This document shows, piece by piece, positions 10,561 through 38,458 of a stretch of DNA of 64,000 nt (the stretch's first letter is position 1; each line of letters begins with the position of its first letter). The stretch comes from an uncultured Vicinamibacterales bacterium (GTDB lineage: Bacteria > Acidobacteriota > Vicinamibacteria > Vicinamibacterales > UBA8438): the NCBI GenBank assembly GCA_958295905.1, contig OY282382.1:1140001-1204000 (forward strand). The letters are read 5' to 3'. A program made the translations under genes and the position numbers. The notes beneath the pieces are model-generated. The model was not told the DNA's origin. It saw only the letters and a program-made list of their open reading frames with translations, and did not search any database.

Positions 10561-10860
10561 TACGGCGCACCAGTCCACCCCGCCTGGGGTCGGCGCCGTT
10601 GCGGGGGTGCCGACCCCGTGTCGACCCCCGGCCGCCCATCTATTCCATGCCCCCCGGCCAGTCCGGCGATTCTCGTCCGCCTGGGCGGGCTCGCGCGGCA
10701 GTCGCCTCAGAATCGCCACCCCGCACCCCAGTCGCGGCTCGGGTGGAATGGGGCCCAGCAAGCCCGCGCGCACGATGCCCCTCCGGCCGACCATGAAGTC
10801 GAACGTCAGGCCGACGTGGATCGCGGCCGAATGGTTGCACCGGGGGCCCAAATGCAGGAC

Positions 10861-33475: not shown

Positions 33476-33637
33476 CATCCCACGCTGACTGCGCGTGACG
33501 GCCCGCCCCGATTCGAGGGGTCGCCACCGTCTTGCCGACCGGCCGGCGCCGCGTGAGACCACGATTCCGCACGTCCGGAGCCCCGGCAGGACCCGCCGCG
33601 ATTCCGCCTGCGCACGGCGGTGGCGGAGCAAGGGATG
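33476..33637 (-). mobile_element. RPT-B copy 3 (162 bp, reversed, one end decayed)
   Basis: Starts CATCCCACGCTGACTGCG and runs through the reversed RPT-B interior. The far end reads GCGGAGCAAGGGATG instead of GCGGAGCGTGGGATG, so that end carries point changes. The glmM-to-TPR gap (33215-33709) holds RPT-D, this element and a TATGAT at 33671-33676 that could be a -10 box for the TPR gene. Confidence 0.8.
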
Positions 33638-33709
33638 CGCCTGAGCGCCCGGCGCTCCGGCGCATTGCTATATGATCGGTGAGTCGCGGTGGTTGGCCCG
33701 GACAGTCCG

Positions 33710-34309
33710 ATGAATCGAACCGAACTGTATTCCGTCGTCGTGTCGCTCGTGCTGGCGGCCGGACTCATGGGCTGGATCATCTGGAGCCAGCGTCCGCCCG
33801 AACCGGTGGCCGAGGTCGTCGGGGCCGCCCCCGCCCCGACCCGGGCGGAGGCGCCGCCGTCCGAGGATGCCCCGGAGCCGCTGCCGATCGACGAGGATCG
33901 CGCGGCCGCCCTGCGCGCGGCCGCCGACGAGGGGCCGGACGACGCGCAGGTCCGCGTCGACCTGGGCAATCTCTACCACCAGGCGCGGCGTTTCGACGAC
34001 GCGATTCCGTGGTTCGAGGCGGCGTTGGCCCTGAGCCCGGACCTCGTCGAGGTGAGCACCGATCTCGGCGTCGCGCACTACTACGCAGGCACCGTCGACC
34101 GTGCGCTGGCCCAGTTCGATCGCTCGTTGGAGATCGACCCGGCGCATGCCGCGACATGGCTGAACATCGGCATCGTGCGGGCCTTCGGCCGGCAGGATCT
34201 GGCCGGGGCCATCGAGGCGTGGGAAGAGCTGCAGCGGCTGGCCCCCGACAGTCTCGAGGCGTTCGCGGCGGCCGATGCCATCGAGCGTCTGCGCGCGGCG
34301 CACCCGTGA
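33710..34309 (+). CDS. membrane-anchored TPR protein
   Basis: This 199-residue protein has an N-terminal membrane anchor (about residues 7-24, SVVVSLVLAAGLMGWIIW) followed by a Pro/Ala/Glu-rich linker and about three tetratricopeptide repeats over residues 75-190 (VRVDLGNLYHQARRFDDAI, STDLGVAHYYAGTVDRALA, WLNIGIVRAFGRQDLAGAI). TPRs mediate protein contacts; the partner is unknown. The helical repeats probably face the periplasm. I chose the ATG rather than an upstream in-frame GTG because it directly opens the anchor. A six-unit RPT-E array follows it. Confidence 0.85.
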   Translation: MNRTELYSVVVSLVLAAGLMGWIIWSQRPPEPVAEVVGAAPAPTRAEAPPSEDAPEPLPIDEDRAAALRAAADEGPDDAQVRVDLGNLYHQARRFDDAIPWFEAALALSPDLVEVSTDLGVAHYYAGTVDRALAQFDRSLEIDPAHAATWLNIGIVRAFGRQDLAGAIEAWEELQRLAPDSLEAFAAADAIERLRAAHP

Positions 34310-34340
34310 CGCGTTCGCGGAATCGTCCCCTGGGATTGTT

Positions 34341-34809
34341 GGAGGGCTGGTTGGGCGGTAATCGGAGCTTCGAGGTGCCGGTTTCCGGGGGAAGTCGTCG
34401 GTGCCGTGTAACGGCGCGGACGGCTGGAGGGCTGGTTGGGCGGTAATCGGAGCTTCGAGGTGCCGGTTTCCGGGGAAGTCGTCGGTGCCGTGTAACGGCG
34501 CGGACGGCTGGAGGGCTGGTTGGGCGGTAATCGGAGCTTCGAGGCGCCGGTTCCGGGGAAGTCGTCGGTGCCGTGTAACGGCGCGGACGGCTGGAGGATT
34601 GGTTGGGCGGTAATCGGAGCTTCGAGGCGCCGGTTCCGGGGAAGTCGTCGGTGCCGTGTAACGGCGCGGACGGCTGGAGGGTTGGTTGGGCGGGAAGCGG
34701 AGCTTCGAGGCTCCGATTTCCGGGGGAAGTCGTCGGTGCCGTGTAACGGCGCGGACGGCTGGAGGGTTGGTTGGGCGGGAAGCGGAGCCGCAAGGCTCCG
34801 ATTTCCGGG
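34341..34809 (+). repeat. RPT-E tandem array, six units of 83-85 bp
   Basis: Units begin with GGAGG at 34341, 34426, 34510, 34593, 34676 and 34761; the last is cut at about 49 bp. Each holds GGTTGGGCGG, a small inverted repeat around CGGAGC and, apart from the last, GTCGTCGGTG with GCCGTGTAACGGC. The last unit forms a perfect hairpin CGGAGCC-GCAA-GGCTCCG. Neighbouring units differ by a few substitutions. No spacers separate them, so it is not a CRISPR array. Single units occur elsewhere in the window. Confidence 0.9.
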
Positions 34810-34821
34810 CTCGGTGACGAC

Positions 34822-35097
34822 ATGGCCCTTGGCTGGCTCATCCGGTTCCTGATCGCGGTGGTCGCGGTGCGGATGGCCTGGAAGTTCTTCAGCGGACTGC
34901 TGGAGGGCGCCGCCCAACGCCCGCGGGTCCCGCCGAGACACGGGGTGAAGTTGGTGCGCGACCCCGTCTGCGGGACTTATGTCGATCGATCCCGGGCCGT
35001 CAGCGCGCGCGGCCGCGGCGGGGTGCACTACTTCTGCTCGGAGGACTGTCGCACCGCGTACCGGCGGGACCCCCGCGGATCCGCCGCCCGGGCGTGA
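34822..35097 (+). CDS. small membrane protein with YHS-type domain
   Basis: This 91-residue protein has an N-terminal hydrophobic segment (about residues 3-22) and a C-terminal YHS/TRASH-like domain with DPVCGTYV near residue 48, then VHYFCSEDCRTAY. The Cys residues of DPVCG and FCSEDC are the usual metal ligands of this fold, so it may bind a soft metal. The start is the ATG just beyond the last RPT-E unit. A degenerate RPT-E unit also follows it. Its role is unknown; it lies next to the microcompartment locus but nothing ties it to that. Confidence 0.75.
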   Translation: MALGWLIRFLIAVVAVRMAWKFFSGLLEGAAQRPRVPPRHGVKLVRDPVCGTYVDRSRAVSARGRGGVHYFCSEDCRTAYRRDPRGSAARA

Positions 35098-35154: not shown

Positions 35155-36039
35155 ATGCAGGGCAGGATGCGGCACGACGAGCGGTTGCGCGCGGACATCG
35201 TAGAGATCGGCCGGCGGCTGCACGATCGCGGGTTCGTCGCGTCGAACGACGGCAACATCAGCGTCCGGATCGGCGACGACCGTCTGGTGACCACCCCGAC
35301 CGGCGTGTCCAAGGGGTTCATGACCCCGGACATGATGGTGACCACGGATCTGACCGGCCGGAAGCTGGCCGGTGACCGCAAGCCGTCGTCCGAGCTGCTG
35401 ATGCATCTCGCCGTCTACGAGCATCGGCCCGAGATCAGGGCCGTCGTGCATGCGCATCCGCCCACCGCCACGGGCTTCGCGGTGGCCGGCATCCCCCTCG
35501 ACCGCGCGGTCCTCGCCGAGGTCGTCACTACCCTCGGGAGTATTCCCATCGCCGACTACGGCACCCCCTCGACGAGCGAGCTGGCCGACGCCGTGCGGAA
35601 GCACATCCGCGCTCACGACGGGTTGCTGCTGGCGAACCATGGCGCGCTGACCATCGCCGACGAGCTGTTCGCCGCCTACTACAAGATGGAGACGGTGGAG
35701 CACTTCGCGCGCATCAGCCTCGTGGCGCGGCAGTTGGGACGCGAGCATCTGCTGTCGCGCGAGGAGGTGAACCGCCTGCAGGGGCTGCGGGACCGTTACG
35801 GCATCGCCGCGCTGGCGCCGCTCTGCCCGCCGGAAGAAGGCGGAGGCGAGGACTGTCAGGTGCTGGAGGCGCCGTCGCGGCCCGGCGAGCGGCTCGTCGA
35901 CCCGGATGCTCCGGTCCCGGCGTCCGCCGGTGCGCCGCGGGCCGGCGCCGCCCGTTCGCCTGGTGGCGACCAGGAAGTTCGACTAACATACCGCGAGCTG
36001 ACGGCGCTGATTGCGGACGCCGTCACGCAATTGCGTTGA
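35155..36039 (+). CDS. class II aldolase, probable BMC cargo
   Basis: This 294-residue protein has a class II aldolase/adducin domain (fuculose- or rhamnulose-1-phosphate aldolase type) over residues 10-215. Such enzymes cleave sugar phosphates to dihydroxyacetone phosphate and an aldehyde. Zinc ligands are His99 and His101 ([11 protein letters not shown]) and His162 (LANHGALTI); Glu80 is the likely catalytic acid. Beyond the fold is a Pro/Ala/Gly-rich linker of about 45 residues and a terminal amphipathic helix (about 275-294, [15 protein letters not shown]), the look of an encapsulation peptide. The next gene codes for a BMC shell protein, so it is probably lumenal cargo. An ATG at 35167 is an alternative start. 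Confidence 0.87.
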
Positions 36040-36058
36040 GAGTCGCGGGGGGCGTGTG

Positions 36059-36346
36059 ATGGGCGAGGCGCTCGGCATGGTGGAGACCAAGGGGCTGGTC
36101 GCGATGATCGAGGCGTCGGACGCCATGGTCAAGGCCGCCAACGTCACCCTGGTCGGCTGGGAGAAGATCGGCGCGGGCTTCGTGACCACCCTCGTCCGCG
36201 GCGACGTGGCGGCGGTGAAGGCGGCGACCGACGCGGGGGCGTCGGCGGCCCGCCGGGTCGGCGAGCTCGTTTCGGTGCACGTCATCCCGCGCCCCCATGC
36301 CAACCTCGAGGACGCCCTGCCGATCGGCAGGGCCGCCGTCCCGTAG
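36059..36346 (+). CDS. BMC-H microcompartment hexamer shell protein
   Basis: This 95-residue protein is one BMC domain (Pfam PF00936 type): [20 protein letters not shown] opens the first strand and helix, [20 protein letters not shown] contains the pore-lining turn, and [15 protein letters not shown] leads to the last helix. It should form flat hexamers that tile the shell facets. The C-terminal extension is short. Start at the ATG before GEALGM. It is the only BMC-H gene in the window and is flanked by aldolase and a vertex protein gene. Confidence 0.96.
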
Positions 36347-36358
36347 CGGTCCGACGCC

Positions 36359-36625
36359 ATGATTCTCGGGAAGGTGGTGGGGACCGTCGTCGCGACCCGC
36401 AAGGACGAGCGTCTGGTCGGCAGCAAGCTCCTGCTCGTGCAGCCGGTGCGGCCCGACGGGTCGGAGCGCGGCGCCCCCCTCGTGGCCGTCGACACCGTGG
36501 ACGCGGGCGCCGGCGAGCAGGTGCTGGTGGTCAGCGGCAGCTCGGCCCGGATGGCGGCGGGGCTCGCCGATCGTCCGGTCGATGCGGCCATCGTGGGAAT
36601 CGTCGACACCGTCGCCGTCGAGTGA
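36359..36625 (+). CDS. BMC-P (EutN/CcmL) vertex protein 1
   Basis: This 88-residue protein of the EutN/CcmL family (PF03319 type) forms pentamers that cap microcompartment vertices. Typical features are the front MILGKVVGTVVATRKDE, the strand block LLLVQPV and the end ALVGIVD-like AAIVGIVDTV. It starts 12 nt after the BMC-H gene. Two further paralogues follow, and the three differ in the loop between strands (here SGSSARMAAGLADRP). Confidence 0.95.
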   Translation: MILGKVVGTVVATRKDERLVGSKLLLVQPVRPDGSERGAPLVAVDTVDAGAGEQVLVVSGSSARMAAGLADRPVDAAIVGIVDTVAVE

Positions 36626-36641
36626 CGCACGGGCCTTGAAG

Positions 36642-36851
36642 ATGACGAAGAGCGAGTTGCGTTTCGACCACCGCGACAACAAGAACTGCTCTTGCTACAG
36701 GCCGGTCGGCGAAGACCGCGATCGCGGACCGTCCCTGTTCATCAACCAAACTTTCGTCTCCGGGTATTTTCGAGGGATGGCTCCGGAGAATGCGAAGCCG
36801 ACGTTGATCGTGGGAAACGTCTCGACCGGGCGCGCCGGAGTCGGAGAGTAA
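36642..36851 (+). CDS. unknown 69-residue protein inside the BMC locus
   Basis: I recognise no family. The protein starts MTKSELRFDHRDNKNC, has two close cysteines (NCSCYRP), a charged middle (GEDRDRGP), a hydrophobic/aromatic patch (FINQTFVSGYFRG) and a C-terminal block TLIVGNVSTGRAGVG that faintly recalls the last strand of shell proteins. No signal peptide or membrane span. By hand count 124 of 210 bases are G or C (59 per cent), clearly lower than its neighbours. It lies between vertex genes 1 and 2 and its TAA stop shares one base with the ATG of vertex gene 2, which suggests coupled translation and a real gene. It could be recently acquired or a decayed shell or cargo gene. Confidence 0.6.
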   Translation: MTKSELRFDHRDNKNCSCYRPVGEDRDRGPSLFINQTFVSGYFRGMAPENAKPTLIVGNVSTGRAGVGE

Positions 36852-37165
36852 TGCAGCTCGCACGCGTCATCGGGAACGTCGTCGCCACCCGGAAGGACCC
36901 CGGCCTCGCCGCGGCGACGTTGCTCGTGCTGCAGCCGTTGTCCCCGGCCCGCGAGCCGGTGGGGGCGCCGCTCGTGGCCGTCGATTCGGTCGGCGCGGGG
37001 GTGACCGAGGAGGTGTTCTTCGTGCGCGGGCGCGAAGCGTCCCTGCCGTTTCTGCCGCGCCGGGTGCCCGCCGACGCCTGCGTCACCGGTATCTGCGATC
37101 ACTGGAGCGCCGCCGCGGACCGGCCGTCGAACGAGACGCCCGCGGAGACGCCCCGGCAGGAGTAG
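36851..37165 (+). CDS. BMC-P (EutN/CcmL) vertex protein 2
   Basis: This 104-residue EutN/CcmL-type vertex protein has the front MQLARVIGNVVATRKDPGL, the strand block LLVLQPLSP and the VAVDSVGAG turn. It differs from the usual form near the end: where the paralogues read AAIVGIVD it reads ACVTGICDHW, and it has a polar 15-residue tail rich in Glu, Thr and Pro. It may occupy a different set of vertices or carry a contact for another protein. It begins in the stop codon of the 69-residue ORF (TAATG). Confidence 0.93.
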   Translation: MQLARVIGNVVATRKDPGLAAATLLVLQPLSPAREPVGAPLVAVDSVGAGVTEEVFFVRGREASLPFLPRRVPADACVTGICDHWSAAADRPSNETPAETPRQE

Positions 37166-37168
37166 ACG

Positions 37169-37444
37169 GTGCGGCTCGCGCGCGTGGTCGGGTCCGTGGT
37201 CGCGACCCGCAAGAACGATGCCCTGACCGGCGCCAAACTGCTGCTCGCCCAGCCCCTCGACGCCGCCGGTGGTCCCGCCGGTGACGCCCAACTGGCGATC
37301 GACGCGGTGGGCGCGGGTCCCGGCGAGCTCGTGCTGCTGGTGCTGGAGGGGCGCGCGGCGGGCGCCGCGCTCGGCCGGCCCGGCGCCCCGGTCGACGCCG
37401 CCATCGTCGGCATCGTCGACCCGCGCGACCCCGCTGCGTCCTGA
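37169..37444 (+). CDS. BMC-P (EutN/CcmL) vertex protein 3
   Basis: This 91-residue EutN/CcmL-type vertex protein has MRLARVVGSVVATRKNDAL at the front, LLLAQPLD in the second strand, GPGELVLLVLEG in the middle and AAIVGIVDPRDP at the end. It starts with GTG behind a CAGGAG ribosome-binding site, 3 nt after vertex gene 2. Three distinct vertex paralogues with one hexamer gene recall the shell set of planctomycete/verrucomicrobial fucose-rhamnose compartments. Confidence 0.94.
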   Translation: MRLARVVGSVVATRKNDALTGAKLLLAQPLDAAGGPAGDAQLAIDAVGAGPGELVLLVLEGRAAGAALGRPGAPVDAAIVGIVDPRDPAAS

Positions 37445-37486
37445 CTCCACGTTTCCGGAGACCGGCCCGCGCGCTGTCGACGCTCG

Positions 37487-38458
37487 ATGGACCAGACCTT
37501 GCCCGGCGTTCTCGTCACGCGCCGCATGCCGTCCTCGGTGCTCGCCCCTCTCGAGGCGGTCTGCGCCGTCGACCGGCACGACTCCACCGATCCGTTGCCG
37601 CACGATGCGCTGTGCGAACGTCTCTCCGGCAAGCAGGGCCTGATCTGCATGTTCGACGACCGTATCGACGAAGCGGTTCTCGCCGCCGGCGACCGGCTGA
37701 AGGTGGTGGCCACCGTCGCCGTCGGGTTCGACAACATCGACGTCGCGTCGGCCGCCGCGCACGGCATCGTGGTCGCGAACACCCCGGACATCGTCACCGG
37801 GGCGACGGCGGAAATGACGTGGGCGCTGATTCTCTCGGTCTCGCGCCGCCTCGGCGAGGGAGATCGGACAATCCGTGCCGGCGGGTGGCGCGGCTGGACG
37901 TTCGATTTCCTGCTGGGGTCCGAACTGCGCGGCAAGCAGCTCGGCATTGTGGGGGCGGGGCGCATCGGCCGTGCGGTGGCCGCCATCGCCCCCGCGTTCG
38001 GCATGCGGGCGGTCTTCGCGGCGCGTCCCGGCCGCGCCCCGGCCCCGGCGGTCGGCGAACCGCCGGGGCTGTCGCTCGACGAGCTGCTGCTGACGTCCGA
38101 CGTCGTGTCCCTGCACGTGCCGTTGACAGCCGAGACCCGGCATCTCGTCAACCGCCGGACGCTGGTGCGCATGAAGCGCTCGGCGGTGCTCGTCAACACG
38201 TCGCGGGGCGGCGTCGTCGACGACGAGGCGCTGGCGTGGGCTCTCGACGAACGGCTCATCGCCGGGGCCGGGCTCGACGTCTTCGAGGACGAGCCCCGGG
38301 TGCGCCCGGGACTGGTGGGGCGGGACAACGTCTGCCTGACCCCCCACCTCGGCAGCGCCACCCGCGAGACCCGCACCGCGATGGCCCAGCTCGCGGTGCG
38401 CAACGTCGTCGAAGTGCTCGGGGGGCGGCCGGCGCTGACGCCGGTCGGCCGGCGCTGA
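37487..38458 (+). CDS. D-2-hydroxyacid dehydrogenase (glyoxylate/hydroxypyruvate reductase type)
   Basis: This 323-residue NAD(P)-dependent dehydrogenase of the D-isomer family interconverts 2-keto and 2-hydroxy acids. The dinucleotide motif is GIVGAGRIGRAVA near residue 151. Catalytic residues are the Arg in NTSRGGVVDDEAL, the Glu in LDVFEDEP and the His in TPHLGSATRETR. The substrate could be glyoxylate, hydroxypyruvate or a product of the aldolase. It lies 42 nt after vertex gene 3 and may belong to the BMC locus, but it has no encapsulation-peptide-like tail. Its 3' end is the seed of a duplication that fills the gap behind it. Confidence 0.92.
   Translation: MDQTLPGVLVTRRMPSSVLAPLEAVCAVDRHDSTDPLPHDALCERLSGKQGLICMFDDRIDEAVLAAGDRLKVVATVAVGFDNIDVASAAAHGIVVANTPDIVTGATAEMTWALILSVSRRLGEGDRTIRAGGWRGWTFDFLLGSELRGKQLGIVGAGRIGRAVAAIAPAFGMRAVFAARPGRAPAPAVGEPPGLSLDELLLTSDVVSLHVPLTAETRHLVNRRTLVRMKRSAVLVNTSRGGVVDDEALAWALDERLIAGAGLDVFEDEPRVRPGLVGRDNVCLTPHLGSATRETRTAMAQLAVRNVVEVLGGRPALTPVGRR

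Follow-up and report, generated by a model that had tools for sequence, protein, structure and literature searches.

The 64-kb stretch of DNA analysed here, referred to as the window (C1:1140001-1204000), belongs to the 6.3-Mb genome of an uncultured Vicinamibacterales bacterium, which is 98% complete and assembled in three contigs. Positions 35155-38458 of its plus strand hold genes for a class II aldolase, a hexameric shell protein of bacterial microcompartments (BMC-H), three vertex proteins (BMC-P) and a D-2-hydroxyacid dehydrogenase (HADH), each with a clear Pfam match (Table 1). All of these genes, reported as packed into 3.3 kb in a preliminary description of the sequence, are present and open, and the conserved genes of the locus show ratios of nonsynonymous to synonymous substitution (dN/dS) of 0.13-0.30 against the related loci L016 and L017 (L-numbers denote the DNA stretches or loci compared, G-numbers the genomes surveyed). 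The aldolase may start at the ATG at 35155 or at 35167, as its aligned relatives do.

This gene set, initially described as unusual, is of a kind already catalogued: it represents the main locus of a microcompartment of the ACI type, which was named in 2021 (Sutter et al., 2021; PMC8217296), and not a locus of the planctomycete/verrucomicrobial (PVM) type. The catalogue lists 125 ACI members, found only in Acidobacteria and mostly in hosts of subdivision 4 or 6, which combine a PF00596 aldolase carrying a C-terminal encapsulation peptide (EP), a hydroxyacid dehydrogenase, a BMC-P triplet, at least one BMC-H and several unknown proteins with an aldehyde dehydrogenase (AldDh) that consistently resides on a satellite locus and is phylogenetically similar only to that of type MIC3. 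In the genome studied here, the PF00596 aldolase has a putative EP, recognised by sequence and model, the locus likewise includes a PF00389/PF02826 hydroxyacid dehydrogenase, the BMC-P triplet and a BMC-H, the AldDh is again encoded on a satellite, and the host group is probably acidobacterial as judged from the named relatives. The unknown proteins are a possible point of difference, as no supported one lies between the members of the window locus: a 69-residue open reading frame (ORF) fails as a candidate and a small EP- and cysteine-containing protein found in most relatives is absent, while two neighbouring genes, for a tetratricopeptide repeat (TPR) protein and a YHS-like protein, are conserved. 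The catalogue defines a locus with both BMC-H and BMC-P as a main locus; this applies to the one in the window, whereas the AldDh gene, with its adjacent shell gene, forms the satellite.

Table 1. Features of the microcompartment locus and its surroundings (positions in the window; relatives are the best 80 of 242 loci retrieved with the aldolase)
Feature	Position	Strand	Evidence and remarks
Class II aldolase, PF00596	35155-36039	+	PF00596, E 7e-50; C-terminal linker and putative EP helix
BMC-H, hexameric shell protein	36059-36346	+	PF00936, 1.2e-29; EutM model 142.5 bits, cut-off 133
BMC-P slot 1, vertex protein	36359-36625	+	PF03319, 2.6e-32; nearest tree rows are slot 1 of relatives
69-residue ORF, unsupported as a gene	36642-36851	+	Match in 1 of 80 relatives; dN/dS 1.34; no family
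BMC-P slot 2	36851-37165	+	PF03319, 1e-24; nearest tree rows are slot 2 of relatives
BMC-P slot 3, GTG start	37169-37444	+	PF03319, 7.3e-29; nearest tree rows are slot 3 of relatives
HADH, glyoxylate/hydroxypyruvate-reductase-like	37487-38458	+	PF00389/PF02826, best PF02826 2.5e-54; no visible terminal extension
TPR protein, conserved neighbour, putative member only	33689-34309	+	Kept in 76 of 80 relatives
Small YHS-like protein, conserved neighbour, putative member only	34822-35097	+	YHS match weak (25.2 bits against a Pfam cut-off of 30.3); kept in 78 of 80 relatives

The genome-wide search placed all three EutN-family matches within the window locus and recovered two single-domain BMC proteins, one in the window and the other on the opposite strand at C1:3731256-3731483; no BMC-T was found among the shell parts. 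The notion of a single hexamer thus holds for the window locus but not for the genome. This second BMC-H gene lies directly upstream of the gene for a 602-residue AldDh (C1:3729375-3731183), 2.55 Mb from the window locus, and both satellite genes are open. The AldDh is one of five PF00171 matches in the genome, all outside the window. Its nearest solved relative is an acetylating acetaldehyde dehydrogenase (5j78, 468 bits), and it reaches 567 bits against the NCBIfam model TIGR02518 (cut-off 620); judged by its relatives, it is predicted to be of the CoA-acylating kind. We counted orthologues of it in 47 of 60 genomes of the same order (at least 678 bits; one split over contigs). Among the 30 AldDh loci examined, a BMC-H gene adjoins the AldDh gene in 26, the satellite described here included, and at least one of the four others lies near a contig end.

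No phosphotransacylase (PTAC) accompanies this enzyme. Neither PduL (PF06130) nor the Pta family (PF01515) gave a match in this 98% complete genome, with the same models matching in 2 and 10, respectively, of 14 control genomes; the PTAC part of a metabolosome core is accordingly missing. PduL was likewise found in none of the 35 sampled genomes of the order, and in 10 of 327 genomes sampled across the phylum, 7 of them among the 130 EutN-positive ones (a cross-count of two lists). An AldDh without PTAC is termed an 'incomplete core' in the accessible sections of an earlier survey (Axen et al., 2014; PMC4207490), so that this combination is not new in itself. The lack of PduL, in this genome and in the sampled genomes of the order, also sets the system apart from PVM-type compartments, which, in the same sections, have AldDh and PduL in the locus, carry a lactate/malate dehydrogenase where the window locus has its D-2-hydroxyacid dehydrogenase, and belong to another phylum. 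The two systems share the aldolase superfamily and the three BMC-P proteins. The preliminary description had rightly noted both this difference from PVM loci and that neither AldDh nor PduL lies in the window. Its proposal of a satellite locus with enzymes encoded elsewhere was borne out as far as the acylating-type AldDh and its BMC-H partner at C1:3.73 Mb are concerned, but it is the main locus that lies in the window, and neither PduL nor Pta gave a match anywhere in the genome. Nor is there a complete canonical PVM locus elsewhere, since all three EutN genes lie in the window and PduL has no match. A locus of PVM-like type was observed in the same phylum, at L187 (G163), where PduL, AldDh, a class II aldolase and three BMC-P genes occur with several BMC-H matches.

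Both enzymes appear to be equipped for encapsulation. In an alignment of 35 of the 81 aldolase sequences at hand, the C-terminus comprises a variable linker followed by a conserved helix, with R274, L275, T276 and Y277 invariant in all 35, and the AlphaFold2 model shows pLDDT values under 50 for residues 251-275 and a helix at 277-291. As this linker-plus-helix layout is the one that excerpts of the catalogue give for EPs (PMC8217296), the aldolase C-terminus is EP-like and a putative targeting signal. Two cysteines that precede it, C222 and C232 (window:35161-36036), are also invariant in all 35 sequences and could form a metal site or a disulfide. In the AldDh, the catalytic domain is followed by a linker, an EP-like helix, a second linker and a 45-residue module that forms the very C-terminus (the last 45 residues of L011:9375-11183, minus strand). 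The module is present in all 28 orthologues aligned, those of the 30 AldDh loci that remained after a motif filter had dropped L103 and L104; 11 of its columns are invariant in 28 of 28, and a strict regular expression matched 19. Of the 28 modules, 22 match the C-terminus of TIGR02536, nine the N-terminus of EutQ, four the C-terminus of PduM and four the N-terminus of EutT. These matches are weak and all far below the curated cut-offs (best E values 2.5e-5, 0.017, 0.0046 and 0.023, respectively); five of the seven families matched are microcompartment-related, and the other two were each hit by one member. The AldDh module itself aligns with EutQ residues 5-40, and the N-terminal helices H1 and H2 of EutQ are described as binding the shell in the available part of a recent study (PMC12487888). 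On these grounds, the AldDh may carry its own shell anchor, composed of the EP-like helix and the EutQ/PduM-like module. A thin search of partly accessible literature on PduM, EutQ and EutT together found no such module on an aldehyde dehydrogenase.

In the aldolase, the H-x-H motif, a further histidine, a glutamate and an SSE motif align with FucA and DrdA, with complete or almost complete conservation across the 35 sequences; they would correspond to the metal-binding histidines, catalytic glutamate and phosphate-site residues of that family. In sequence and fold, the protein is about equally near FucA, DrdA and YgbL/OtnC, with YgbL as the top fold match. The HADH has glyoxylate reductases as its best solved relatives. 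The acidic residue usual for NAD appears to be lacking from its dinucleotide-binding loop, which hints at a preference for NADP(H).

Considered jointly, the ACI identity and an aldolase-to-AldDh reaction scheme appear probable to us. According to this scheme, the main locus and the satellite AldDh/BMC-H pair 2.55 Mb away would make up one metabolosome, with the aldolase entering the lumen through its EP and the AldDh through its own EP-like helix, whose EutQ/PduM-like neighbour may grip the shell. The aldolase would split a 1-phospho-ketose into dihydroxyacetone phosphate (DHAP) and a short aldehyde, which the AldDh would convert to acyl-CoA and NADH. As there is no PTAC, the acyl-CoA would probably pass straight into central metabolism, and CoA would have to pass through the shell or be released by some other route. 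The HADH might recycle the cofactor or handle a downstream C2/C3 hydroxyacid. A keto- or hydroxyacid step in place of the aldehyde step, one of the options proposed initially, finds no support, because the genome encodes a conserved AldDh of the acylating type. Several observations nevertheless weigh against the scheme. The aldolase falls below every curated NCBIfam cut-off, its best model being OtnC (139 bits, cut-off 250), and the catalytic Tyr113 of FucA is apparently not kept, its place being taken by an invariant A119-E120-V121. Two genomes, G084 and G159, carry three EutN genes without an AldDh orthologue, perhaps owing to assembly gaps. Finally, the HADH gene is missing from five loci that have 8 kb of downstream sequence, and no HADH match was found in the 7-14 kb fetched around 11 aldolase-BMC loci outside the order (L172-L181 and L183; aldolase 39-50% identical).

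The catalogue counts ACI among the types with no obvious signature enzyme or assigned function and proposes a carbohydrate role for it, based on the aldolase superfamily and the three BMC-P proteins that it shares with PVM compartments (Sutter et al., 2021; PMC8217296). It is accordingly conceivable, if rather unlikely, that the organelle is a PVM-like one for fucose or rhamnose, in which fuculose-1-phosphate or rhamnulose-1-phosphate would yield DHAP and lactaldehyde, the latter being oxidised by the AldDh. The genome does encode an FGGY kinase, but it is the only one and lies away from the locus, and PduL is missing. Among the ORF families shared by the relatives from BMC-H to queE (or over 8 kb), we recognised no sugar kinase or isomerase by eye, a survey that did not include a dedicated search for fucose or rhamnose isomerases. 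Moreover, the aldolase of the PVM-like L187 locus is 37% identical to that of the window, in a match over 7-215 that does not take in the EP tail. The similarity to OtnC, together with YgbL as the top fold match and the presence of a hydroxyacid dehydrogenase within the locus, suggests another assignment, in which the aldolase homologue would decarboxylate 3-oxo-tetronate 4-phosphate or a similar acid made from a precursor supplied by the HADH, leaving the AldDh to serve some other aldehyde. We consider this improbable, as DrdA and FucA score about equally in fold and sequence and a decarboxylase such as OtnC would presumably yield no aldehyde for the conserved AldDh.

It could further be argued that the locus is a decaying remnant whose shell genes persist although the organelle no longer works. 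The small EP- and cysteine-containing protein is indeed lacking from its usual place here: it is encoded between BMC-P3 and HADH in relatives (e.g., L092:10065-10328 and L089:2718-2969) and comprises an EP-like N-terminal helix, a variable linker and a C-terminal C(I/L)IEPxVxCxHCGYCxSxGH motif (C-x2-C-G-x-C...GH). Of 67 complete intervals, 50 contain the motif and 17 (L016-L020, L022-L031, L041 and L045) do not, the window's nearest relatives being among the latter. However, the first 15 of these 17 loci have aldolases among those most similar to the window's and keep the other locus genes, and the low dN/dS values and open satellite genes speak for a maintained system, so that decay is very improbable. 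The motif was not found in the window or in seven other stretches of the genome, which make up the part searched. The protein may belong to the catalogue's unknown ACI proteins, and its cysteine motif suggests a metal site.

Returning to the aldolase-to-AldDh scheme, our favoured substrate, held tentatively, would be a 1-phospho-ketopentose made by MtnA. The possibilities, no firmer than this, are ribulose-1-phosphate derived from nucleosides, which would release glycolaldehyde, and 5-deoxyribulose-1-phosphate derived from 5'-deoxyadenosine, which would release acetaldehyde. Precedents exist in the accessible parts of studies on the DHAP shunt (PMC6079011, PMC10986504) and on a haloarchaeal ribulose-1-phosphate aldolase (PMC9700705). 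The genome has an MtnA-family match (PF01008). MtnB is itself a PF00596 member; its model TIGR03328 gives the window aldolase 84 bits (cut-off 137). By our own counts, 23 of 60 genomes of the order combine an AldDh orthologue with exactly one PF00596 protein. The MtnA survey covered 14 of these genomes, each of which has MtnA. In 13 of them, the PF00596 gene shares a contig with an EutN gene and is separated from it by no more than about 2 kb; in G151 it is on another contig. With the aldolase as the lone PF00596 member and MtnA present, the aldolase is the likeliest consumer of the MtnA product in single-PF00596 genomes, as far as gene content can indicate. In the genome studied here, a second PF00596 protein (L141:5842-7152) was considered as MtnB and rejected, as it scores 26.6 bits (cut-off 137) and resembles RhaD/short-chain dehydrogenases at low score. 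In seven of eight loci from the order (L143-L150; L148 was the query source and L145 ends at a contig end), mtnA adjoins at least one nucleoside-salvage gene, followed by tsaD; the neighbours encode pyrimidine or purine nucleoside phosphorylase, NupC and cytidine deaminase, with NupC alone at L143. In a single genome of the order, G269, all three of EutN, the AldDh orthologue and MtnA are lacking, and the sole PF00596 protein is a low-scoring one.

The link to MtnA is weakened by several of the same surveys. MtnA occurs in 310 of 327 genomes of the phylum, in 126 of 130 EutN-positive and 184 of 197 EutN-negative ones, and being near-universal, its presence says little. Of the 47 AldDh-containing genomes, 24 have no PF00596 protein (one genome) or at least two, and MtnB may be among them; of these extra proteins, the second one of the present genome is the one that was classified. 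Within the order, the linkage of mtnA to nucleoside salvage was read from genomes other than the present one. Outside the order, it was found in none of 10 EutN-positive genomes, some of the stretches ending at contig ends, and in one of 10 EutN-negative genomes, there with a weak purine nucleoside phosphorylase match. It may therefore be confined to this order, and it does not track the BMC genes across the phylum.

Known pathways offer both parallels and differences. The DHAP shunt for 5-deoxyribose disposal likewise couples an MtnA-type isomerase to a class II aldolase that yields DHAP and an aldehyde, and its aldolase DrdA is among the nearest solved relatives of the window aldolase; the accessible text of these studies makes no mention of a microcompartment (PMC6079011, PMC10986504), whereas the aldolase described here has an EP-like tail and is encoded apart from mtnA in the genomes of the order seen. 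The non-carboxylating pentose bisphosphate pathway of haloarchaea similarly leads from a nucleoside phosphorylase to a ribulose-1-phosphate aldolase that produces DHAP and glycolaldehyde, but it is archaeal, involves an R1P kinase, an R15P isomerase and a phosphatase, and the available portion of its description does not contain the term 'bacterial microcompartment' (PMC9700705). The SPU BMC, for which the use of DNA sugars has been proposed, also has a sugar-phosphate aldolase feeding an AldDh and a proposed nucleic-acid source, but relies on a DeoC-type PF01791 enzyme and RpiB instead of a PF00596 aldolase (PMC8217296). Among the literature matches listed, we recognised none that join microcompartments with the DHAP shunt or pentose bisphosphate pathways, and, apart from the 2021 catalogue, none that deal with the function of ACI compartments. 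It is with more reserve still than for the substrate itself that we suggest ACI compartments to be (5'-deoxy)nucleoside salvage organelles, in which an MtnA-fed, EP-tagged aldolase would operate inside the shell, without a PTAC and with an AldDh doubling as shell linker.

The chromosomal setting of the main locus is well conserved. The aldolase search recovered 242 loci from named genome records, and the comparison used the best 80. Of these 80, 73 are titled Acidobacteria or subgroups thereof; the remaining seven, titled Woeseiaceae, Acidimicrobiia (four), Bifidobacterium breve and Cyanobacteria, have the same kind of locus and are therefore probably mislabelled metagenome-assembled genomes. 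In addition to the TPR and YHS-like genes, the best 80 loci share glmM (64), the aldolase (80), BMC-H (78), all three BMC-P genes (71), HADH (63), queE (45) and queC (44); many of the absences, though not all, reflect contig ends. In 54 loci, an endonuclease-III-like gene (named by eye) lies between HADH and queE. Since the order from glmM to queC is common to the relatives, inheritance looks vertical. In a tree of 73 BMC-P sequences, built from few columns, each BMC-P of the window groups with the same slot of its relatives. The tree covers 21 full-triplet loci (20 and the window), includes just two non-ACI loci, which have long branches, and required one change for slot 3, two for slot 2 and four rather than one for slot 1; over all groups, there were nine changes, compared with 40 after shuffling. 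EutN itself occurs in 130 of 327 genomes of the phylum sample and in 33 of 35 of the same order, not all of them ACI.

The 69-residue ORF between BMC-P slots 1 and 2, listed initially as a locus gene, is an open frame but does not hold up as a component: in addition to its near-absence from relatives and its high dN/dS in the one match, the corresponding gap in L017 is too short to accommodate it, and comparison with Pfam and NCBIfam gave no match at E values up to 10. The surroundings of the locus also contain repeats. A tandem array of 5.3 copies of an 83-bp unit (96% matches) lies between the TPR and YHS-like genes at 34340-34788, with diverged copies in L142. A dispersed repeat of about 145 bp at 33500-33660 occurs five more times in the window (near 10853, 15447, 50792, 61477 and 62704) and recurs in L014, L015 and L142 as well as in L011, where it lies upstream of the satellite BMC-H gene. 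It matched no Rfam family, and the Rfam search of the window returned rRNA and tRNA only.

ACI is a type so far without an assigned function, in a phylum that has been called particularly relevant to soil (PMC8217296). Our analysis narrows the question of its role to a system with no phosphotransacylase, one EP-tagged aldolase and one AldDh of the acylating type that may bear a shell anchor, encoded in a conserved chromosomal setting. Beyond the 2021 catalogue, it may add two elements, the tail module of the AldDh as a possible shell anchor and a possible link between the aldolase and MtnA, and it points to a class of candidate substrates amenable to testing with two purified enzymes.

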